From a virus: a stretch of DNA of 55,042 bases. Where the stretch lies: the IMG/VR virus record IMGVR_UViG_3300017991_000133, positions 1-55,042 of that record. One strand, written 5' to 3'. The notes beneath the pieces are model-generated. The model had not been told where the DNA came from. It ran no database searches and saw nothing but the letters and a program-made list of their open reading frames with translations. Shown here one piece after another: positions 5,130-41,612 of the stretch (positions are counted from its first letter, which is position 1; each line of letters opens with the position of its first letter). The translations under genes were made by a program, and so were the position numbers.

Positions 5130-5745
5130 CTTTTTCTCCCATGATCCGCTCCCACCATGCCTGGCCGTAATTGACTCGGTGGTAGGGCGTGGGCCCGCGG
5201 AGGCGAAGCTGCTTGTACATAACGGGGTCAGGGCTGCCGTGGTTCGTCTCGAGATTGTATCCCGGGTAGAATGCCCCAAATCCTCCAAACAGAGCGTCCA
5301 CATAAATCTTAGCCACGATGCTCGCTGCGGCCACCTCGTAGATTCCCTTGTCGGCCTTTGTCTTGCAGGTCACAGGGATCCCGATCTTGCGGCGCATAAG
5401 ATTGAGAGCGGCCGCTGAGAAGTAGCCGTCAAGCAGAACGCTGGCCTTGTCTGTGCTTATTTGCATTGCGTAGAGCTTGTCGAGCAGCTGGCGCACGGCT
5501 GCTATCATGGCGTTGTTTCTGGCCAGGTGCACGCCTATATGGCTTATGTCCTGGACGGTTGCCAGGGTGACGGAGTAGATGTTGTGCTTTTGGAGCTCCG
5601 GCCAGACCTCGAGGCGCTGGGCTGGGCTCAGGAGCTTGCTGTCTCGCACGCCGGGCACTCTTTTGTTGGTGGGCGTTAACGCGCATACCACACAGTCGCC
5701 GGCAATGCTGGGGCTGAAGTTCACCTCATCGACTCCTATTATCAT
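5113..5745 (-). CDS. rnhB: Ribonuclease HII-like protein
   Basis: A 210-residue protein with the RNase HII order of motifs. It has MIIGVDEVNFSPSIAGDCVV (Asp-Glu of the DE active-site pair), VRDSKLLSPAQRL (DSK), LLDGYF (third acidic), EVAAASIVAKIYVDALF (AAASIxAK helix) and a late NHG. The family removes RNA from RNA:DNA hybrids, so it could process primers. The GRG after the first motif is replaced by NFS, which may alter junction recognition. The start overlaps the upstream basic protein as ATGA. Confidence 0.85.
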   Translation of the reverse strand: MIIGVDEVNFSPSIAGDCVVCALTPTNKRVPGVRDSKLLSPAQRLEVWPELQKHNIYSVTLATVQDISHIGVHLARNNAMIAAVRQLLDKLYAMQISTDKASVLLDGYFSAAALNLMRRKIGIPVTCKTKADKGIYEVAAASIVAKIYVDALFGGFGAFYPGYNLETNHGSPDPVMYKQLRLRGPTPYHRVNYGQAWWERIMGEKDGEKD

Positions 5746-10615: not shown

Positions 10616-10834
10616 CTATCCTTGCCGGGTCTGTTTCTGTGCTGCTGGGGCAGTCCCGGCATGGGCCTCGATGAAGATGCGGATGAGGCGCCTCATCGAT
10701 GGCAGCGGGGTGTGGCGCCCGGTGAACCAGCGATGCAGGGTCGTGTAGCTGATCTCGAGCTCCCGGCAGATAGCCTCGTTGCTTAGCTTTTCGCGCTCTT
10801 TGATCTCGCGCAATTTCTCTAGCTCGTATACCAT
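10616..10834 (-). CDS. Cro/CI-type HTH regulator
   Basis: A 72-residue protein. LSNEAICRELEISYTTLHRW forms a clear helix-turn-helix, with the recognition helix SYTTLHRWFTGR. Short, single-domain and promoter-proximal, like Cro. AGGAGGACAATATGG sets the start, only about 14 bases after the predicted transcript start. It probably binds the palindrome CGCCATGGCG inside its own promoter and the divergent rightward promoter. Confidence 0.75.
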   Translation of the reverse strand: MVYELEKLREIKEREKLSNEAICRELEISYTTLHRWFTGRHTPLPSMRRLIRIFIEAHAGTAPAAQKQTRQG

Positions 10835-11116: not shown

Positions 11117-11145
11117 TTGACATTCGCCATGGCAAACGCTATATT
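11117..11145 (+). promoter_or_regulatory. Rightward promoter of the ribozyme operon
   Basis: TTGACA (11117-11122), a 17-base spacer, then TATATT (11140-11145). The spacer contains CGCCATGGC. This is the only strong promoter found for the plus-strand operon; transcripts should start near 11152. Confidence 0.8.
11125..11133. promoter_or_regulatory. Palindromic operator, right
   Basis: CGCCATGGC between the -35 and -10 boxes, sharing nine bases with the left operator and placed at the same distance from its -35 box to within a base or two. It implies coordinated control of the two divergent promoters. Confidence 0.55.
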
Positions 11146-11149
11146 ATTA

Positions 11150-11410
11150 ATAGGATGAAAAAGAAAAAGGGCGACAGAGAGACGGTCAGCGGATGTCAAG
11201 GCCAGTTAGGTCAAGTCCTTTTCCTTGGCTCTTTGAAAAAAGAAAGCTGAATAGGCTGCCTGGGGTGACTGCCCCAGCGCTCCTCGGCCGGCGAACCGGG
11301 CGGTAGCTGACGCGAGTCAGCGAGAATCGGATGGCTGCCCGAGGGTGCCAGCGCTGCGGCGGGTGTTCCCGGGGGCTCGAAAAGCAGAATCAAAAACCTC
11401 CCTCCCAAAT
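11150..11410 (+). ncRNA. Long structured 5' leader of the ribozyme operon
   Basis: About 260 bases of leader with no credible gene. Hairpins visible by eye are CTGGGG-TGACTG-CCCCAG (11260-11277), CCGG-CGAA-CCGG near 11288 and GCTGAC-GCGA-GTCAGC (11306-11321). AGCGCT occurs before and after this block and could close a multibranch domain. It is separated from the first message by ribozyme 1, so it would be released as a discrete RNA. No riboswitch class is recognised. Confidence 0.5.
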
Positions 11411-11478
11411 TCGAAAGCGGGGAGGGCTTCTTCCCGCTCCCTCCGGTGCTAGCCGGCCGGGGGCTGAAGAGATAGGCT
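11411..11478 (+). ncRNA. Type-II hammerhead ribozyme 1 (leader)
   Basis: GAAA 11413-11416. Stem III GCGGGGAG/CTTCCCGC 11417-11437. UC 11438-11439 with predicted cleavage after 11439. Stem I CCTCCGG/CCGGGGG (one GU) 11440-11463. CUGAAGA 11464-11470. Stem II is only two pairs (GA with TC). Loop AGCC (11451-11454) can pair with GGCT (11475-11478). The 15.2-16.2 pair is G-C here and C-G in ribozymes 2-6. It would free the first coding message from the leader. Confidence 0.75.
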
Positions 11479-11501
11479 TAATTTTTTTTGGGAGGTTTTC
11501 T

Positions 11502-11744
11502 GTGAAATACACAATCGAAAAACTGGAGCTTGTGGATCCCGAGCGGAACCACTGCAAATTTTACGAGCTCGAGTATGACGCGTTCGATAAGAGCGCTGTC
11601 GTGGTCACCCGCCGCTGGGGCCGCATCGGCACCACCGGCCAGGTCCGAAAGGATACGTTCCCTACCAGCGTCGAGGGCTATGCCTTCTTCAACGAAATCC
11701 TTTACTCGAAGCTGCGCAAGGGCTACCGCACGGTAGATTGCTGA
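11502..11744 (+). CDS. Stand-alone WGR-domain protein
   Basis: An 80-residue protein starting with GTG (reads VKYTIEKLELVDPERNHCKF). TRRWGRIGTTGQVRKDTF followed by A-F-F-N-E-I-L-Y-S-K-L-R-K-GY is the whole WGR domain, named for its Trp-Gly-Arg. WGR domains bind nucleic acids, as in PARPs and MolR-type proteins. TGGGAGGTTTTCTGTG sets the start. It is the first gene of the ribozyme operon, between ribozymes 1 and 2. A DNA- or RNA-binding role is likely; the target is unknown. Confidence 0.85.
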   Translation: MKYTIEKLELVDPERNHCKFYELEYDAFDKSAVVVTRRWGRIGTTGQVRKDTFPTSVEGYAFFNEILYSKLRKGYRTVDC

Positions 11745-11746
11745 AC

Positions 11747-11845
11747 GCCGAAACCGGGGCATCAGGGCCCGGGCATGTGGGCTTTGTCTGCATGCCGGTC
11801 CTCCCGGTCCCTCGGGTTGACATCCCGGGGCTGACGAGGCTGTCA
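11747..11845 (+). ncRNA. Type-II hammerhead ribozyme 2
   Basis: Stem II GCC 11747-11749 with GGC 11838-11840. GAAA 11750-11753. Stem III is closed by CCGGG/CCCGG and carries an extra internal hairpin (GGCATG/CATGCC). UC 11808-11809, cleavage after 11809. Stem I CCTCGGG/CCCGGGG. CUGACGA 11831-11837. Loop TGACA (11818-11822) pairs with TGTCA (11841-11845). The preceding stop ends 2 bases upstream. Longest stem III of the set. Confidence 0.85.
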
Positions 11846-11871
11846 GATTAAATCTTTTGGGAGGTTTTCAA

Positions 11872-12162
11872 ATGTCTAAACTTTCATCTTATGCAATGGG
11901 CGGCGGCCGCAAGGCTAAGCCGGTTACGGATCCGTCCAAGTTCTCGCGTCATTTCAATCTGGACGATGTCGAGGGCATCATCGGGTTGATGGATGCCAAC
12001 GTTCTGGTGGCTGCGGCTGCCGGTCAGATCGACCTCAACGAGGTCGCTTCCTGGGAGTTGGCCAATCGCGGGATGAACCGCATGGGCGAATGGGTAGGCT
12101 TCGACGAGGCCAAGAGGCGCCATGAGGCGCGCGCCGTCACGCACGGCTGGCCTAAGAGGTAG
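11872..12162 (+). CDS. Unknown ribozyme-operon protein, 96 aa
   Basis: Starts MSKLSSYAMGGGRKAKPVTD after TGGGAGGTTTTCAAATG. Helical, with an alanine-rich middle (DANVLVAAAAGQIDLNEVAS) and a basic C-terminus. No family recognised. Its TAG overlaps the first base of ribozyme 3 stem II. Probably a small early protein of host takeover. Confidence 0.7.
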   Translation: MSKLSSYAMGGGRKAKPVTDPSKFSRHFNLDDVEGIIGLMDANVLVAAAAGQIDLNEVASWELANRGMNRMGEWVGFDEAKRRHEARAVTHGWPKR

Positions 12163-12230
12163 CCGAAACGGAGGGCTCCCCGATCCTCCGTCCCTCCGGG
12201 GTGACTTCCCGGAGGCTGATGAGGCAAGTC
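12162..12230 (+). ncRNA. Type-II hammerhead ribozyme 3
   Basis: Stem II GCC 12162-12164/GGC 12223-12225. GAAA 12165-12168. Stem III CGGAGG/CCTCCG 12169-12190. GUC ending 12192 (cleavage site). Stem I CCTCCGGG/CCCGGAGG 12193-12215, perfect 8 bp. CUGAUGA 12216-12222. Loop GACTT (12203-12207) pairs with AAGTC (12226-12230). All canonical core bases are present; the best single example in the array. Confidence 0.92.
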
Positions 12231-12253
12231 GAAAAATTTTGGGAGGTTCAAAA

Positions 12254-12571
12254 ATGTTTGAGAAAGACTGTGATTATGAGGTCATGAAAGACGGCGCCAG
12301 CCTGGTCGCTTCGGTGGCCATGGGATCCGGCATCGGCACTTCCTGGAGGCAGAAATCCTTTAAGCTTCCTAAGGGCGCGCTTATCCACTACGAGGGCCGC
12401 GGGAAGGCCATTTTTTCCGGCAGTGTCGAGATGGAATTCTTTTCCATCGTGACCTCGGGATTTGGCGCAGACGCCGGTTCGGACATGAGCGGAGTTGTTT
12501 ACTTCAAAGGCTATTTCGAGCCTAATTCCTGGGGCTGCGTGCCTGCTGGGTATCTCCGCAAGGTCGACTAA
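12254..12571 (+). CDS. Unknown ribozyme-operon protein, 105 aa
   Basis: Starts MFEKDCDYEVMKDGASLVAS after TTTGGGAGGTTCAAAAATG. Beta-rich pattern (ALIHYEGRGKAIFSGSVEME). No family recognised. It is flanked on both sides by ribozymes and its TAA overlaps stem II of ribozyme 4 by one base. Confidence 0.7.
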   Translation: MFEKDCDYEVMKDGASLVASVAMGSGIGTSWRQKSFKLPKGALIHYEGRGKAIFSGSVEMEFFSIVTSGFGADAGSDMSGVVYFKGYFEPNSWGCVPAGYLRKVD

Positions 12572-12635
12572 TCGAAACGGGGGCTTGGGGCCCTCGTCGC
12601 CGGGAGGTGACCGTCCCGGCCTGAAGAGATAGGTC
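12571..12635 (+). ncRNA. Type-II hammerhead ribozyme 4
   Basis: Stem II ATC 12571-12573/GAT 12628-12630, a covariation from GCC/GGC. GAAA 12574-12577. Stem III CGGGGGC/GCCCTCG. GUC ending 12598. Stem I GCCGGGA/TCCCGGC 12599-12620, perfect 7 bp. CUGAAGA 12621-12627. Loop GACC (12609-12612) pairs with GGTC (12632-12635). Confidence 0.9.
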
Positions 12636-12661
12636 GAAATTAATTTGGGAGGTTTTCTAAA

Positions 12662-13057
12662 ATGGCTAAGAAAAAAGAACAGTGGGCAATCGATTATGAG
12701 GTCCGGGTCGCGGCCATCCGGCGGGCGATTAATGTGGACGGCCACAAGTTCTATCTTGACACCTATTTGGGCCGCAAGCTGGTCCTGGCCATTGACGCGG
12801 ATGGCAGCACTGCTGTTTCCGGCCTTGGCACCTGGAGCCAGCACTCCTGGGCGATCTGCTCCACTCAGGTTTATCCCTGGGCAGAGGAGATTGGGATCCC
12901 TCAGGACAAGCACTTCAAGTTCGAAGTGTTCTCAACTCACCGCAGCGAGCAGGCCGCCGAGAAGCGGGCGCTCATGGAGCTCGATGTCAAGTCTTTTGTC
13001 GATTACCGGATCGTCAACCAGCCCAATGGGCTTTCTGTCCTATGGGTTGCTAGATGA
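12662..13057 (+). CDS. Unknown ribozyme-operon protein, 131 aa
   Basis: Starts MAKKKEQWAIDYEVRVAAIR after TTTGGGAGGTTTTCTAAAATG. The alpha/beta pattern with KFYLDTYLGRKLVLAIDADG suggests a small globular domain. No family recognised. The stop lies 2 bases before ribozyme 5. Confidence 0.7.
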   Translation: MAKKKEQWAIDYEVRVAAIRRAINVDGHKFYLDTYLGRKLVLAIDADGSTAVSGLGTWSQHSWAICSTQVYPWAEEIGIPQDKHFKFEVFSTHRSEQAAEKRALMELDVKSFVDYRIVNQPNGLSVLWVAR

Positions 13058-13059
13058 CA

Positions 13060-13123
13060 GCCGAAACGGGGCGCCGCCCCGTCCTCCCGGGAGTGACCGT
13101 CCGGGAGCTGAAGAGGCAGGTCA
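13060..13123 (+). ncRNA. Type-II hammerhead ribozyme 5
   Basis: Stem II GCC 13060-13062/GGC 13115-13117. GAAA 13063-13066. Stem III CGGGGC/GCCCCG with a 3-base loop. GUC ending 13083. Stem I CTCCCGG/CCGGGAG 13084-13107, perfect 7 bp. CUGAAGA 13108-13114. Loop TGACC (13094-13098) pairs with GGTCA (13119-13123). Confidence 0.9.
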
Positions 13124-13149
13124 AATTATTTTCTTTGGGAGGTGTTTTT

Positions 13150-13410
13150 ATGAGTAAGGAAAAACTCGTTTCTATTCCAGCCGGGTTTAAGTGCCCGGCC
13201 GTTGCTAACTTGCCGGCGGATCCGGCGCTCGAGAGTATGGAGTGCTCGGTGTTCGGTCAGACAAACTGGTTCTGCCCCTACGCTGCTTTTCCGTGCTTAG
13301 AGGAGCGCCGGCTGAGCGCTGACTGTCCGTATGCTCCTGCTGAAATCTGGCGCCACTTCCGGAATTTCCGCGAGCGCGTAGAGCTCGAGGCGCTGGAGGG
13401 AAAGGGATGA
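13150..13410 (+). CDS. Cys-containing ribozyme-operon protein, 86 aa
   Basis: Starts MSKEKLVSIPAGFKCPAVAN. Cysteines at about 15, 32, 41, 48 and 58 (KCP, ECS, FCPY, PCLEE, DCPYAP) could bind zinc or Fe-S. The frame opens earlier, but GGGAGGTGTTTTTATG sets this ATG. Overlaps the next gene by 4 bases, and no ribozyme separates them. Confidence 0.7.
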   Translation: MSKEKLVSIPAGFKCPAVANLPADPALESMECSVFGQTNWFCPYAAFPCLEERRLSADCPYAPAEIWRHFRNFRERVELEALEGKG

Positions 13411-13631
13411 CAAAAATCAAGGAATATTTAAACACTCCTGTTTTTGTTTTTCTCTATGAAGATGCTATTCCGGAGGTCATTCTCTGGATGGTGTTTTACA
13501 ATGGCATCGTCGATGCCGTGGAGCTGCTGGCGGCATGGCTCGGGGATGCGTCCGAGACTTATCTTCGCGGCTTAACGGTTACCGTCGTCGACGCCGATGA
13601 GCTGCCGGGCGATCCCTTTGAGTGGATGTGA
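13407..13631 (+). CDS. Unknown ribozyme-operon protein, 74 aa
   Basis: Starts MTKIKEYLNTPVFVFLYEDA. Acidic, with hydrophobic stretches too short for a sure membrane span. Translationally coupled to the gene before it (ATGA). Its TGA overlaps ribozyme 6 stem II by one base. Confidence 0.65.
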   Translation: MTKIKEYLNTPVFVFLYEDAIPEVILWMVFYNGIVDAVELLAAWLGDASETYLRGLTVTVVDADELPGDPFEWM

Positions 13632-13695
13632 TCGAAACGGGCCCTTGCGGGCTCGTCGCTCCGGGTTGATCACCGGGGCCTGATGAGATTGATCA
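13631..13695 (+). ncRNA. Type-II hammerhead ribozyme 6
   Basis: Stem II ATC 13631-13633/GAT 13687-13689. GAAA 13634-13637. Stem III CGGGCCC/GGGCTCG. GUC ending 13657. Stem I GCTCCGG/CCGGGGC 13658-13679. CUGAUGA 13680-13686. Loop TGATCA (13667-13672) pairs with TGATCA (13690-13695), the longest pseudoknot at 6 bp. Confidence 0.9.
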
Positions 13696-13718
13696 AATTT
13701 TTTATGGGAGGTATCGTT

Positions 13719-13955
13719 ATGGACCGTTTAAGTGGACAGAAAAATTTCCACTACGGGCTGGACTTCGTACTCAGTCACCGCGCCGAAGATGTGGCAGAGG
13801 CCATCGATATGCTGGCCAGCCGCAATCGCTTTGAGAAGGTCAAGCGGGTCGTTATTCGGCCTGAGGAGAAGCCCGCTCTGCGACGGCAGCTCGAGGAGCG
13901 CATGAAGGTGCGCCGCCGCAAGGCTGAGCGCCGCCGCGGGGAGTACCGGAAATGA
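13719..13955 (+). CDS. Basic ribozyme-operon protein, 78 aa
   Basis: Starts MDRLSGQKNFHYGLDFVLSH and ends in a strongly basic helix (MKVRRRKAERRRGEYRK), suggesting RNA or DNA binding. ATGGGAGGTATCGTTATG sets the start. Overlaps the next gene by 4 bases. Confidence 0.65.
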   Translation: MDRLSGQKNFHYGLDFVLSHRAEDVAEAIDMLASRNRFEKVKRVVIRPEEKPALRRQLEERMKVRRRKAERRRGEYRK

Positions 13956-14182
13956 CCTTACAGGCACTTTTGGTAATAGGGCTGCTGCTCTGGTGCTTTG
14001 CGCTGACCGTGCTGCTTATGCGCGAGATGCGCCGCTGCGACCGGATGCGGCACAAGCTGCTTGAGATCCTCCGCGAAATGACGGCGGATTCTCACCAGCA
14101 GGATCTGTTCCCCCAGGCTTATCGTGATGCGGTTTCGCATTACTCTCTGGCCATAGAAGGAGTTGTCAATGAAAGTGATTAG
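13952..14182 (+). CDS. Single-span membrane protein, 76 aa
   Basis: Residues about 3-23 (LQALLVIGLLLWCFALTVLL) form a transmembrane span followed by a basic stretch and a cytoplasmic helical tail. The only clear membrane protein of the operon. Overlaps both neighbours, so it is translated in a coupled trio with no ribozyme between. Confidence 0.65.
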   Translation: MTLQALLVIGLLLWCFALTVLLMREMRRCDRMRHKLLEILREMTADSHQQDLFPQAYRDAVSHYSLAIEGVVNESD

Positions 14183-14405
14183 CGAGATTAAGCTGCCAGG
14201 TGATATCGAGGTCAAAAAGGTTCCGTCCGACCAGATCCGCGTAGAGATCACCATGGAGTGCACGGACATCTATTTCCGCGAGCTGGATGCATCGATCCAG
14301 GAGGCGGTGGGAAGGTCGTTCCAGGAGCTGCTGCAGAGCGCTGTTATGCGACAGGTGGAAAAGGTAGAGGAGAATTACCTGGAGCGGATTCGGGCGAAAT
14401 CTTAG
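14169..14405 (+). CDS. Unknown ribozyme-operon protein, 78 aa
   Basis: Starts MKVISEIKLPGDIEVKKVPS with AAGGAGTTGTCAATG. Two strands then a long helix (QEAVGRSFQELLQSAVMRQV). No family recognised. Starts inside the end of the membrane gene. Its TAG overlaps stem II of ribozyme 7. Confidence 0.65.
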   Translation: MKVISEIKLPGDIEVKKVPSDQIRVEITMECTDIYFRELDASIQEAVGRSFQELLQSAVMRQVEKVEENYLERIRAKS

Positions 14406-14506
14406 CCGAATCGGGACCATTCCCCGGAGGTCCCGATGGTGCGGCGATGGCTGACCGCGCCCTGATGATCGCGAGAGCGAGTGCGCCGAGAGGTGCACGG
14501 CAGGCC
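14405..14506 (+). ncRNA. Divergent type-II hammerhead 7 with inserted hairpins
   Basis: Stem III CGGGACC/GGTCCCG, stem I GGTGCGG/CCGCGCC (14438-14461) and CUGAUGA (14462-14468) are intact. GAAA is GAAT, and the paired U at 16.1 is A: the A15.1-U16.1 pair is swapped to U-A and the cleavage base is U14437. Two extra hairpins (TCGC/GCGA 14469-14480, GTGC/GCAC 14481-14498) lie before the stem II strand GGC (14499-14501). Loop GGCT pairs with GGCC (14503-14506, one GU). Slow or inactive, or a regulated variant. Confidence 0.6.
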
Positions 14507-14529: not shown

Positions 14530-14859
14530 ATGAAAATTTATTTCGGTGTTGGCTCGGGTCCCGGCCCGAGGCTGATCGAGGTCCTGGGAAGCCGGGACGG
14601 TGCGGGCAGAGAGGCTCGGCCCTATCCGCTGCGCCATTTCGTCCGGCACAGTCCGGATGGCTTTCAGTGGGGATATGCAGGGAGCGGGCCCGCGGATGCG
14701 GCGCGCTGTATTTTGATCGATTGCGTAGGAGTCGATCTGGCGGATCGTTTTTACCAGCGATTCAAGCAGGACTTCATCGCTCCTGCCGGCGACCGGCTGT
14801 ATATCACGGAGGCGGAGATCCGCGAATGGCTGGAGGATCAGGCTGGGTACTATGGATAA
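14530..14859 (+). CDS. DUF6166-like phage protein
   Basis: A 109-residue protein starting MKIYFGVGSGPGPRLIEVLG. The segment PYPLRHFVRHSPDGFQWGYA followed by GSGPADAARCIL and a terminal REWLEDQ helix matches the DUF6166 family of small phage and plasmid proteins. Function unknown. ACGGGAGGTATCGTTATG sets the start. Overlaps the last gene by 8 bases. Confidence 0.7.
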   Translation: MKIYFGVGSGPGPRLIEVLGSRDGAGREARPYPLRHFVRHSPDGFQWGYAGSGPADAARCILIDCVGVDLADRFYQRFKQDFIAPAGDRLYITEAEIREWLEDQAGYYG

Positions 14860-15103
14860 GTTCGAGTCGCAGGAGGTCGGGTTTCAGCTTGCTGCGGAGG
14901 CCGGCGTTCCGGTCCGCGGCATCGTCGATGGTGTAAGGTACATTTTCTTTCCTTCTGGCCATCGCAAGGAGGTCAGAGCAGGAGGCATGAAACGCTCGCC
15001 CACGGCGCCGCTCGATGCGGATACGAAAGTCGTGAGGTGCCCGGCGTGTCGCTTCACAGTATTCCGGGATGGCTGCTGCAGCTACTGTGGAGAGAAATTT
15101 TAG
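14852..15103 (+). CDS. Zinc-ribbon protein, 83 aa
   Basis: The C-terminus VVRCPACRFTVFRDGCCSYC has CPAC and CSYC pairs spaced as in a zinc ribbon. Residues 1-45 are unassigned. Last gene of the operon, ending just before the terminator. Confidence 0.65.
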   Translation: MDKFESQEVGFQLAAEAGVPVRGIVDGVRYIFFPSGHRKEVRAGGMKRSPTAPLDADTKVVRCPACRFTVFRDGCCSYCGEKF

Positions 15104-15119
15104 CCTCCCAAATCTTTTA

Positions 15120-15156
15120 GGCCCAGGGGCCGGTTGGTTCCTGGGCCTTTTTTTTT
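15120..15156 (+). terminator. Rho-independent terminator of the ribozyme operon
   Basis: GGCCCAGG (15120-15127), a 12-base loop and CCTGGGCC (15140-15147), followed by nine T residues. A textbook intrinsic terminator for rightward transcription. The rest of 15157-15364 holds no gene I can support; a weak AACGC/GCGTTTTT hairpin near 15310 could end the leftward late transcript. Confidence 0.9.
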
Positions 15157-15364
15157 GGCCAAAAATATCGGCGCACAGGCGGCTTCTGGTCGCCTCGTTT
15201 CGTAAAAAGCCGTATTTCAGGATGAAAGCGCAGGATAAATAGTGCAAAAAGCCCTAATATTGCACAAGCTATTGAAATTGTGCTGTTTAGGCCGGAATAA
15301 AAACGCTCTGAGAGGCGCTACGGCGGGCGTTCTCTTGTCGATGCTTATATCCGGTCGCTCAAAA

Positions 15365-37732: not shown

Positions 37733-40700
37733 TTATCCGCTGCTGGCAGTGCCGCCCATGCTGAAGGCTGTTATGTGGCCTTCTTGAATGAGGTTCCATA
37801 CGCCGGGCTCTGTGATCTTTAGCATCAGCCACCAGGAGCCCTTTTTTACGGTCTGGCCGCCCCGGGTTATGTCGTGTTCCGGCTGGAAGCACTCAAGGAT
37901 CGGAAAGGTGTAGCTCTTGCCCCGGTGCTGGACCTTGATCCGCTGGCTGTCCTTGGCGTACTTCTCCATGAAGCGGTACATGGCATCCTGGATGTCCTGG
38001 GCCGAGGTGTAGTCGCCCTGGGTGTCCACCACGTCTGGCTCGTAGACCACTCCGCCCACGATCTGCTTCGTCTTCAGCTGCTTGAGGATCCGGAATTCCA
38101 GGTTCAGGGCTTTCGCGACAGGCTCCTCTATGGCCACTGTGCGCAGAACGCGGCCGCCTTGGGCCTTGATGTCGGCCATTCCTTTCATGCTGTGCTCGGC
38201 GCAGACGGGCACGTATGCTCGGCCGTCGGCCCATATGTGACTCTTCACGGCCGGCTTGTCGCAGTACTTGCACTTGTGCGACTTTGTGGCCGCCTCTTTC
38301 GTGACCGCCTGGTGGTCGCTGTCCTTTAGCCTGCTCATCATCCAGACTCTTTCGCCCTCCCCTGTGGGCACGTAGCTGAATAAATAGTTGCCGTCGAGGA
38401 TCCGGCCGCCGGTGAAGCGGATCTTTTTGGCGTGCTCGTCGGCCTTGTATATCTCCCAGTCAAACGAGTCCAGGTTGACGAGCGCGGCGTATTTGTGGGC
38501 GGAGGCTCCAACGGTGCCAGGCTCGAAGATCTCGATTTTTTGCTTGCCGGCGGTCATCCAGCTCAGCGGCCCTCGCACAATGTTCTGCTGGCGCTCCCCT
38601 TTATGGCTGACCTTCCATGAGAAGCGCAGCTTCGCGTTCTCCGTATCGAGCTTATCGAGCTTGCTAAGCCCGGTGAGATTGCCCACCAGGATCTCGCCGC
38701 CCTCCCAGTAGTCCTTGCCTGCAGGCCGCAGGCGAATGTCGCAGTGTACTCCCTTTTCTCCAAGAACGTCCTTTAGGGCGCGCTCGAGCTTGGCTGGCGT
38801 AAAACGGGCCACTAGGATCCGGCTTTGGGCCTCTTTCAGAGCTTTTGTCTGGTCCTCCTCGATGCCCATGATGTGAGCCTGTAGCACGCCGGTGCCCTTT
38901 GTCCCGGGCTCAAAGTCGATGTTTCCCTCGGCCCCTGTGGTGCCCTCGTCCTTGGCCACCTGGCCCACTCCGGGTCTGTCAGCGCGTCGCATCGTGCCTC
39001 CGCATTTGGGGCACTTGAGCTCTACGCAGTGCTCGGTGGTCGTCAGCCGGTGGCCGCAATCGATGCACTCGCAATCGTAGCGGGTCTTGTCGATGGTGAC
39101 GTCGCGGATGGTGTTTTTTATGCCCGGCGGGGGATCGTAGCCCACGGGGGGCTCGAATTCCTCTATCACGTCGAGCTCGTAGGCGGCCTTAAAGCCGTCC
39201 CGGCCGGTGTAGCGCAGCTGCACAACTCCCAGGATGTGCTTGTTCTCGACCAGGTAGATTCGCTTGCCCACATAGCCGCTGCTCAGCTTCTGGCCAAGCA
39301 GCAGGGTGCCGCTCTTCATGGCTTCCGCTCCCTGGGGCTTCTGGACGTAGATGCCCCGCAGTGTTTTTGCCTTTGTCACCTGAAGAACGTTTGCCCGGCG
39401 GGCCACGTCGGCTGCCTGGGCGGCGGTATAGGGCTCCTTGCGCCCGCTGTCTTTGTCAATCACTCGCGGGCCCAGCCAGACAAGCTTGCCATCCTGCGGG
39501 ATGAGCTCCTCAATTCCAACGGTCAGGATGTCACCGATGTCAGCTTTTATCTCTGTGGTGTAGGTCTTCCCCAGGACCACCAGCTTTTTGCTGTCCACGT
39601 CCGTCGTGTTCGCATAGTCGCTATCTGCCTTTAGCACTCCGCAGCTGTATACGTAGCGGCCGCCCTTGGCCGTGTGGCGATCCAGAACCTGGGCCTTTAT
39701 CTCGGCCTCCACCTTAAGCTTTGCCCATCCGGGCTCGCTGCCGTCGAGACTCCAGGTGCTCTTTACGTCCTTTATGACCACTCCCTCGCTCTGCGGGAGC
39801 CTGGCGAATTCTTTAAATCTGTCCTCGAGCTCCTCGAGGCTTTTGATCTGGACAGATCTCGTCATGTCGAAGTGTGGGCTGGCTTTCAGGTGCTCGCCGT
39901 AGAATTCCTCCAGCGCCTTTCGCCTTTCTGAGAATGGCTGGTCGTGGAGATCTTTGTCCCTGTAGGGCATGTCGAAGACGGTGGCCACGATGCGGTCCTT
40001 TTCGCCAAGCTGCGGCTTCGCGGCCATGAGCGTCATGAGCTCAATGCGGGGCAGCGGCTTGCCGTCCCTCTCTATGCCTACGCTCGAGTCCAGGATAAAG
40101 GCGCCGGGGATTCTGGCCAGCTCCTGGGTCAGCGTCGGGTATTTCGCGGCGTGATTCTCGCGGTTCTCGCTCATGATCTTTACGGTGTCGCCCTGCTTGG
40201 CCAGCACCATGCGGAATCCGTTAAGCTTCGGCTCTGCTACCAGGGTGCGATCCTTGGCCCAGGAGGCGATCTCTTTGACGCTGTATGCCTCGGTCAGCCC
40301 CGCCATGGTCGGCTTGGGCGGGTCGTAGCGGCCGAATGGCGTGAGCTCCCTGGCCTTGGCCACAGCCTTTTTGTCCCAGCGCACCAGGGCGGCGTTCGAG
40401 CGCTTGATCTCGTGGATGGCGTAGCGGGAGTCGTCAGCCAGGCGCTCCTGCAGGGCGGCTGCCGTCTTGAATTCATGGGCGTGTGTGGGGTCGTATCGTT
40501 TGCCCAGCGGCACGAGCGCCACAATGCGCTCGGCTGCCACACGCTCCGCCTCCCTCAGGAGGTGCTCTGTGTTCTTTACATGCTCCAGGCTGTGAACCAT
40601 GACGACGTTGTCCCAGCTGTTGGAGTCGTAGGGCAGCGGATCCTCTTCAAGGTCGACGTCCACGACGTCCAGGCCCCGCTTGCGGCAGTAGCGCAGCGCG

Positions 40701-41452
40701 GTCCGGTCGTTGTCGATGCCGGCCACCTTGCGGCCGCTTTGCTCCAGGAGCTTCAGGAGACGGCCGGTGCCGCAGCCTAGATCCAGAACGCTGCCATCGG
40801 CCAGGTTGCTGACCACATTCCAGTTGTCCTCAAGCAGCTGCATGTCCCAGCTGTCCAGCCCCTCGTAGTATTCGGGCGGCTTTGATGCGGCCTTGCCCCA
40901 TGAGCGCTTCTCCTCCACCGGCACCCGCTCCATTTTATGCTTGCCGCGCAGCACGAGGTCAAACATGGGCACGAATGTGCTGTGGGGGCCCCGGGGGGCG
41001 TAGACGAAGTGCGCCTCTTTTCCTGTGCGCATCTTGACGGTCCGGCCCACCTTGAGCTCCACTCCCTGATCGCGGTTATCCGCGCTGTCGCGTATGACGA
41101 TGTCGACGTCCTCGGCGCCTGCCGGATCCTTGACGAAGCTGCCGGCTATGCTCATGTAGTCCGGCACGATGACCAGGTCCCCCAGGTCGCGCACGTCTAT
41201 GCCGAACATGGCCTTGCGGAAGACGGCCCGGTCGATGGCCTTGTCGTTGTAGCGCAGGCCCCGCTCTTTCATCTCGCTTACAAGCAGCTGGTAGTTATCC
41301 AGCAGCTCCGAGCGCTCGAGCTTGCCGATGCGGATGCACCGGCTGTTATAGAAATGGCGCTCGTATAGGTTTATGGCCCTGAGCCTCAGCACGTAGAGCT
41401 CGTTGTCATCTACGCTCTTTAGAGTCTCTGCCTTGATGTCCTCGATTTTCAT
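37733..41452 (-). CDS. Giant NTase-methyltransferase-ligase-XkdF protease fusion
   Basis: A 1239-residue protein starting MKIEDIKAETLKSVDDNELY. About 95-170: polymerase-beta-type nucleotidyltransferase (GSF, DVDIVI, FDLVL). 221-320: SAM methyltransferase (LDLGCGTG). 400-670: ATP-dependent DNA ligase (EPKLNGFR with lysine K409; EGVVIK; AKLK). 794-817: zinc ribbon. About 850-1045: LigD-3'-phosphoesterase-like. 1061-1084: CxxC...C pair. 1125-1239: XkdF serine protease (QHRGK, SMGG). Ligase motif I has Asn in place of the usual Asp. It may be cut by its own protease into repair enzymes carried in the head. Confidence 0.75.
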   Translation of the reverse strand: MKIEDIKAETLKSVDDNELYVLRLRAINLYERHFYNSRCIRIGKLERSELLDNYQLLVSEMKERGLRYNDKAIDRAVFRKAMFGIDVRDLGDLVIVPDYMSIAGSFVKDPAGAEDVDIVIRDSADNRDQGVELKVGRTVKMRTGKEAHFVYAPRGPHSTFVPMFDLVLRGKHKMERVPVEEKRSWGKAASKPPEYYEGLDSWDMQLLEDNWNVVSNLADGSVLDLGCGTGRLLKLLEQSGRKVAGIDNDRTALRYCRKRGLDVVDVDLEEDPLPYDSNSWDNVVMVHSLEHVKNTEHLLREAERVAAERIVALVPLGKRYDPTHAHEFKTAAALQERLADDSRYAIHEIKRSNAALVRWDKKAVAKARELTPFGRYDPPKPTMAGLTEAYSVKEIASWAKDRTLVAEPKLNGFRMVLAKQGDTVKIMSENRENHAAKYPTLTQELARIPGAFILDSSVGIERDGKPLPRIELMTLMAAKPQLGEKDRIVATVFDMPYRDKDLHDQPFSERRKALEEFYGEHLKASPHFDMTRSVQIKSLEELEDRFKEFARLPQSEGVVIKDVKSTWSLDGSEPGWAKLKVEAEIKAQVLDRHTAKGGRYVYSCGVLKADSDYANTTDVDSKKLVVLGKTYTTEIKADIGDILTVGIEELIPQDGKLVWLGPRVIDKDSGRKEPYTAAQAADVARRANVLQVTKAKTLRGIYVQKPQGAEAMKSGTLLLGQKLSSGYVGKRIYLVENKHILGVVQLRYTGRDGFKAAYELDVIEEFEPPVGYDPPPGIKNTIRDVTIDKTRYDCECIDCGHRLTTTEHCVELKCPKCGGTMRRADRPGVGQVAKDEGTTGAEGNIDFEPGTKGTGVLQAHIMGIEEDQTKALKEAQSRILVARFTPAKLERALKDVLGEKGVHCDIRLRPAGKDYWEGGEILVGNLTGLSKLDKLDTENAKLRFSWKVSHKGERQQNIVRGPLSWMTAGKQKIEIFEPGTVGASAHKYAALVNLDSFDWEIYKADEHAKKIRFTGGRILDGNYLFSYVPTGEGERVWMMSRLKDSDHQAVTKEAATKSHKCKYCDKPAVKSHIWADGRAYVPVCAEHSMKGMADIKAQGGRVLRTVAIEEPVAKALNLEFRILKQLKTKQIVGGVVYEPDVVDTQGDYTSAQDIQDAMYRFMEKYAKDSQRIKVQHRGKSYTFPILECFQPEHDITRGGQTVKKGSWWLMLKITEPGVWNLIQEGHITAFSMGGTASSG

Positions 41453-41612
41453 TCTTCCCTCCTGCAGCCTTTTCGTATGGCAGCCTGCGGCCGCACCCGC
41501 TTCGCGGGCACTTGGCCATGGTCCGGTAGCCCTTGCGGCGGATTGCACAGCAGGCCGTGACCACGATCATCTTGCCTCCGCATCCTGGGCACCTATTTGT
41601 CGCTATCCTCAT
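41406..41612 (-). CDS. Small zinc-ribbon protein, 68 aa
   Basis: Starts MRIATNRCPGCGGKMIVVTA with CPGC, a CC pair and a late CPRSGC, like Ogr/Com-type zinc fingers that activate or regulate phage late genes. The ATG overlaps the stop of the preceding gene. The tail (KNENRGHQGRDSKERR) overlaps the start of the giant fusion by 47 bases. Confidence 0.6.
   Translation of the reverse strand: MRIATNRCPGCGGKMIVVTACCAIRRKGYRTMAKCPRSGCGRRLPYEKAAGGKNENRGHQGRDSKERR

Follow-up and report, generated by a model that had tools for sequence, protein, structure and literature searches.

A phage operon with type II hammerhead ribozymes in its leader and gaps: sequence evidence for a message that would divide itself

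How might an operon that is transcribed from one promoter deliver its genes as separately ended messages? This question is raised by the IMG/VR virus record IMGVR_UViG_3300017991_000133, the contig of an uncultured phage, which was analysed as a window of 55,042 bases comprising the whole viral contig. A cluster of about 4 kb on its plus strand, with 11 genes, carries a series of hammerhead motifs, designated S1 to S7. By covariance model, catalytic core, stems, and pseudoknot, S1 to S6 are type II hammerhead ribozymes, for which self-cleavage is predicted; S7 is a divergent relative. Probably, the operon RNA would be made from one promoter and divided after transcription by the hammerheads into separately ended messages.

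A search of both strands of the contig with the Rfam covariance model RF02276 (Hammerhead_II; gathering score, 37 bits), which an earlier, sequence-only reading of this DNA had proposed as a check, gave seven matches contig-wide (E ≤ 6.2e-5), all of them on the plus strand and all inside the operon. The scores of S3, S4, S5, and S6 exceed 37 bits; S1, S2, and S7 are below the gathering score (contig-wide E 9.6e-6, 5.4e-6, and 6.2e-5, resp.). A strict descriptor, composed of GAAA, NUH, and CUGANGA with stems I and III of at least 4 bp and stem II of at least 2 bp, found six sites on the plus strand, none on the minus strand, and none in 100 Markov-1 resamplings. These six sites, S1 to S6, share an identical catalytic core while their stems differ, and all six cut positions named in the sequence-only reading were reproduced to the base (see the table below). 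Set against RF02276, they agree in core, stems, open stem II, and tail, with S1 (short stem II) and S2 (long stem III) remaining sub-threshold; S7 deviates by core changes and an insertion.

In S1 to S6, stems I and III are loop-closed, stem II is open, and pairing is maintained despite sequence change. Stem II is GCC/GGC at three sites and ATC/GAT at two, and has only 2 bp at S1. Pairing was assessed by an arm-swap test, in which stem arms were permuted among the six sites (720 permutations). The score of a site's own arms was reached in 1/720 permutations for stem III, in 2/720 for stem I, and in 36/720 for stem II. For the pseudoknot between loop I and the 3′ tail, which measures 4–7 bp per site, it was likewise reached in two of the 720 permutations, one of which is a tie produced by swapping the near-identical loops of S4 and S5. 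In minimum-free-energy folds of the single sequences, both stem I and stem III were retained at every site. The permutations and the folds thus agree with the claim that stems differing in sequence and still pairing are real RNA folds; together with the RF02276 matches and the strict descriptor, they bear out type II hammerheads as real folds between the genes. In Perreault et al. 2011 (PMC3088659), the loop I-3′ tail pseudoknot is the tertiary contact described for type II hammerheads, and mutation of related type II ribozymes showed that it matters for fast cleavage.

The count of seven hammerheads given by the sequence-only reading stands for the six canonical sites and has to be modified for S7, which is divergent in its core. 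The changes there are GAAU, A16.1, and U17, with U15.1-A16.1 in place of A-U. In addition, an insertion of about 30 nucleotides (nt) with two hairpins precedes GGCAGGCC and separates CUGAUGA from the GGC that pairs with GCC; GCC/GGC closes both insert hairpins, and the fold has a z of −3.6. Stems I and III and CUGAUGA are retained in S7, where a UGGCU/GGCCA pseudoknot is also possible; a cut, if any, would fall after 14437. It lacks both the canonical core and the uninterrupted stem II of a type II hammerhead and is probably a slow or dead relative rather than a fully active ribozyme. In a further phage with a hammerhead array (G045), some sites have one extra U at the stem II junction (CUGAUGAU), which indicates that small changes at that junction recur.

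With hand-curated genes, a hammerhead site is located in the leader and in 6/6 non-overlapping gaps, as had been read from the sequence initially, and none in the four overlapping gene pairs; the overlapping blocks without an internal ribozyme are genes 5/6, 7/8/9, and 10/11. At every intercistronic ribozyme, the GAA core lies 2–5 nt past the upstream stop codon; at S3, the gene 2 stop codon extends into stem II. An A/U-rich stretch and GGGAGG come after each ribozyme, and genes within the overlapping blocks have different ribosome-binding sites (RBSs). From this common order it appears that ribozyme, spacer, and Shine-Dalgarno (SD) sequence behave as one cassette. The motifs, their pairing, their placement, and the limits of the operon are established from the sequence.

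As the nascent intercistronic region leaves the polymerase, the type II hammerhead would fold, the loop I-tail pseudoknot would lock the fold, and the RNA would be cut after NUC. The products would be a leader fragment and about six to seven messages, each holding a single gene or a translationally coupled block. Their predicted sizes are 370, 383, 406, 485, 574, 780, and 719 nt, with 1499 nt replacing the last two if S7 is dead. The upstream piece would end in the stem III hairpin with a 2′,3′-cyclic phosphate just past the stop codon, and the downstream piece would start with a 5′-OH and the stem I hairpin, followed by the A/U-rich spacer and a strong SD. Hairpins would be present at both new ends because type II closes stem I as well as stem III; judged from architecture, type II would be alone among the hammerhead layouts in giving a closed hairpin on both cleavage products. 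Such terminal hairpins should slow 3′ exonucleases and 5′-end-dependent decay. The cuts would in this way serve as punctuation, end protection, and insulation, with the gene blocks being translated and decaying independently. Cutting close behind the stop codon would leave the upstream open reading frame (ORF) intact; since stem II and GAAA would lie under a terminating ribosome, the cut may be delayed until the ribosome has left. That cutting occurs in the cell, that it stabilises the messages, and that it is of benefit is what we infer beyond the folds themselves. For the synthetic hammerhead insulator RiboJ, an approximately 2-fold rise in mRNA was tentatively attributed to its terminal hairpin (PMC6206723), which agrees in direction with protection by the 5′-side hairpin.

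Several points weigh against a self-dividing message. S7 looks impaired, and stem II of S1 has the 2 bp mentioned. In a survey of 77 strict viral type II sites, among the matches listed, 57 begin no more than 10 nt from a stop codon, versus 3.6% at random positions, which speaks for the reading. A uniform-placement test on the same sites gave P 0.0016, with a total gap of 476 nt versus 658 expected; the nearness to stop codons is largely due to compact gaps, and the bias beyond that is modest. Finally, the nearest sister phage with a related operon, L162 (63% terminase identity), contains only one RF02276 match, adjoining its gene 5 homologue. Punctuation is not conserved in the lineage, and from this lone site the array would be recent or labile there.

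The sequence-only reading had considered operon punctuation by hammerheads an undescribed system. The sequence evidence gives good support to the folds between genes and to an operon RNA that likely cuts itself, but this claim to novelty is wrong. Perreault et al. reported clustered hammerheads flanking prophage genes and proposed that long transcripts are cut to single-gene mRNAs; cleavage was published for three such arrays in vitro and for one in E. coli, and a triple hammerhead array flanks ardA of Agrobacterium tumefaciens (PMC3088659). Like the present sites, those clusters flank phage genes or short blocks and are of type II with a loop I-3′ tail pseudoknot. Here, seven sites occur in about 3 kb, in the leader and every non-overlapping gap, whereas the examples that the text of that paper names have fewer. 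The operon is an unusually complete example of the phage hammerhead clusters known since 2011. RiboJ, derived from the hammerhead of satellite tobacco ringspot virus (sTRSV), likewise cuts upstream of the RBS, so that the RNA begins with a hairpin and has a standard 5′ untranslated region (UTR); it differs in being synthetic, in its other hammerhead architecture, and in its site after the promoter rather than between genes (PMC6206723). Theta ribozymes of gut phages are also phage-encoded self-cleaving RNAs acting as processing signals; they have a fold like that of hepatitis delta virus, lie beside tRNAs, and were proposed to function in tRNA 3′ processing and not in mRNA division (PMC10879173). 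For the stop-codon register, the two-hairpin argument, and the anti-SD arrangement discussed below, no describing paper was found in a search that left most subscription journals outside.

Arrays of four to nine type II sites recur in unrelated viral contigs, among the matches listed. By automatic gene calls (a simple ORF/SD method), such arrays fill many or all of their non-overlapping gaps, namely 4/4, 2/2, 2/2, 4/9, 4/6, and 3/5. The annotated phage Dulem virus 39 (PP511791.1, 49653-51926) has three type II hammerheads, absent from its annotation, beside a helix-turn-helix (HTH) gene; it also carries a gene for an integrase and, by its annotation, rtcB. Among contigs of cellular genomes, one of 119 stretches matching a loose pattern passes the structure filter, supporting both the specificity of the filter and enrichment in phages. 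Within the phage family, only one of 40 terminase-related contigs, most of which are fragments, has a site. A link of the hammerheads to one gene family was considered and is not supported: for nine relatives of the DUF6166 gene, the descriptor found no hammerhead at the loci and RF02276 none anywhere in the records. A protein scan of viral contigs found no relatives of gene 1 or of gene 5, and a homology of genes 7/8/9 to L162 looked plausible by eye but was not confirmed, the comparison being weak. The single hammerhead-like element of L162 mentioned above has a CUGACAA core and lies inside a possible ORF of 67 amino acids (aa) at 5223-5426, which has an ATGA overlap with both neighbours; perhaps it is a dead ribozyme turned coding sequence.

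A second conserved intercistronic RNA motif, NNN-CUGGGYAY-N′N′N′-UAAACUGCCY, was noticed on the minus strand of contig L163, from array phage G045 (6305-6326 and 14162-14183), and in many other viral contigs (L300-L378), with at least 120 viral stretches. It occupies hammerhead-like places, about 8–15 nt past stops and often 20–40 nt before starts, sometimes directly before tRNAs. Its 3-bp stem covaries freely (87–91% paired in 116 instances; GTC/GAC, GAC/GTC, GTG/CAC, CAC/GTG, GAG/CTC, and others), and pairing of GGGYA with UGCCY could form an H-type pseudoknot. The motif matched none of the families in Rfam 15 and is possibly a phage RNA element not yet classified.

Among other explanations of the array, the one that survives best has the ribozymes serve a regulatory circuit instead of plain punctuation: an anti-SD in the leader would hold off the SD of gene 1 across S1, and the cut at S1 would unlink the two; in addition, the leader piece, once freed, and the RNA of the trailer may bind in trans to the similar RBSs of genes 2–5, 7, and 10. 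Such a translation switch is unlikely. The anti-SDs in leader and trailer are complementary to the RBS common to the ribozyme-linked genes. The 9-mer CCTCCCAAA has only two plus strand copies in 55 kb, one in each operon UTR, an arrangement seen in 0/400 Markov-3 resamplings. In the minimum-free-energy fold of the uncut leader, GGGAGGUUUU is paired with AAAACCUCCC, so that the SD of gene 1 is masked and S1 lies in the enclosed loop; in the predicted fold of the cut product, this SD is mostly free. Mean duplex energies with ribozyme-linked RBSs are −16.1 (leader) and −17.8 kcal/mol (trailer), compared with −11.3 and −11.2 kcal/mol with other RBSs. On the other hand, the pattern was picked out post hoc; SDs pair with any stretch resembling CCTCC, and similar scores are reached by many unrelated segments of the contig. 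Even after cleavage the leader fragment could remain bound, and reading of L162 showed no obvious anti-SD in its leader. Taken as a whole, the leader is unremarkable in structure (z −1.1). Masking of gene 1 by the leader anti-SD until S1 cuts is predicted from the modelled folds and would be the newest aspect of the system. The full ribozyme-gated circuit, with the freed leader and trailer RNAs tuning the ribozyme-linked RBSs, we regard as decidedly unlikely; if true, self-cleavage would divide the operon and also license translation.

Circular or spliced RNAs, made by joining the pieces between cuts through ribozyme reversal or an RtcB-type ligase, are improbable. The 5′-OH and cyclic phosphate ends suit RtcB, and a host ligase could supply the activity. 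An RtcB co-occurrence, the idea for which came from the three sites and the rtcB gene of Dulem virus 39, had to be rejected: RtcB (PF01139) was not found in the window, in any of 47 viral contigs, nearly all of which have type II sites, or in any of 48 comparison contigs. Perreault et al. sought circular or spliced products and found none (PMC3088659). That the hairpins are terminators or passive stabilisers of 3′ ends with chance or decayed hammerhead cores, as GC-rich hairpins, T-rich stretches at a distance downstream, and the lost core features of S7 might suggest, is hardly credible, given a core identical at six sites with differing stems, a co-varying pseudoknot, and gaps in which no strong terminator-like site was found.

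The minus strand of the contig carries terminase, portal, head-morphogenesis, and methyltransferase genes, and by the terminase, portal, and head genes the contig is from a tailed phage. Promoter and terminator delimit a single transcription unit; the operon is complete. A match to suhB/mmgR of Rfam (15077-15163), with 28.2 bits against a cut-off of 41, was taken as nothing but a resemblance to the terminator plus anti-SD. Pfam and PHROG profile searches matched no known family for genes 3, 7, 8, and 9, and a comparison of the operon DNA with phage records found no similarity. The divergent HTH gene is a candidate regulator of the operon. An CGCCATGGC palindrome sits in the spacers of both divergent promoters and is likely a common operator. 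Elsewhere on the minus strand, a 1271-aa ORF at 37733-41548 combines methyltransferase, ATP-dependent DNA ligase, and XkdF-like prohead protease domains in an odd fusion.

Table. Hammerhead sites, signals, and genes of the operon and its divergent neighbour (scores of S1 to S7 refer to RF02276).
Feature	Position	Strand	Details
S1 (leader)	11409..11481	+	30.0 bits; cut predicted after 11439; pseudoknot AGCC/GGCU
S2	11746..11848	+	31.0 bits; cut predicted after 11809; long stem III; pseudoknot UUGACA/UGUCAG
S3	12161..12234	+	42.0 bits; cut predicted after 12192; pseudoknot UGACUU/AAGUCG
S4	12570..12638	+	44.9 bits; cut predicted after 12598; pseudoknot UGACC/GGUCG
S5	13059..13125	+	48.5 bits; cut predicted after 13083; pseudoknot UGACC/GGUCA
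S6	13630..13697	+	45.6 bits; cut predicted after 13657; 7-bp pseudoknot UUGAUCA/UGAUCAA
S7, hammerhead relative	14404..14502 (RF02276 match 14404-14481)	+	26.9 bits; E 6.2e-5
Operon promoter, sigma70-like	11117..11145	+	TTGACA-17-TATATT; 11/12 consensus bases; consensus match only
Leader anti-SD AAAACCTCCCTCCCAAA	11393..11409	+	inverted repeats with operon RBSs; just before S1
Gene 1	11502..11744	+	80 aa; WGR domain (Pfam WGR E 4.3e-17)
Gene 2	11872..12162	+	96 aa; unknown function; phrog_22970 E 5.6e-10
Gene 3	12254..12571	+	105 aa; ORF with TTTTGGGAGG RBS
Gene 4	12662..13057	+	131 aa; unknown; ORF with TTTGGGAGG RBS
Gene 5	13150..13410	+	86 aa; Cys-rich; homologues in sister phage L162 (tblastn E 2.1e-12)
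Gene 6	13407..13631	+	74 aa; ORF overlapping gene 5 (ATGA)
Genes 7-9	13719-13955, 13952-14182, 14169-14405	+	overlapping ORFs
Gene 10	14530-14859	+	DUF6166 (Pfam E 2.3e-21); overlaps gene 11
Gene 11	14852-15103	+	ORF overlapping gene 10
Trailer anti-SD CCTCCCAAA	15104..15112	+	directly past last stop codon
Intrinsic terminator of operon	15119..15148	+	13-pair stem, then T8
Small HTH gene (Cro/C1-like)	10616..10834	-	Pfam HTH_31 E 1.2e-6; divergent from operon
Promoter-like site of HTH gene	10883-10855	-	divergent; CGCCATGGC(G) palindrome also in operon promoter

With its own promoter, its own terminator, and a ribozyme in each real gap, the operon offers a clean test bed in which fragments and ends are predicted to the base. 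A 2017 review ties hammerheads to phages and small ORFs and calls their biological role an open question; the purpose of bacterial and phage hammerheads is regarded as open in the field (PMC6155905). The order of stop codon, ribozyme, spacer, and SD in many viral contigs suggests that type II was chosen for the hairpins it would leave on both ends, an idea that is general and can be tested with mutants.

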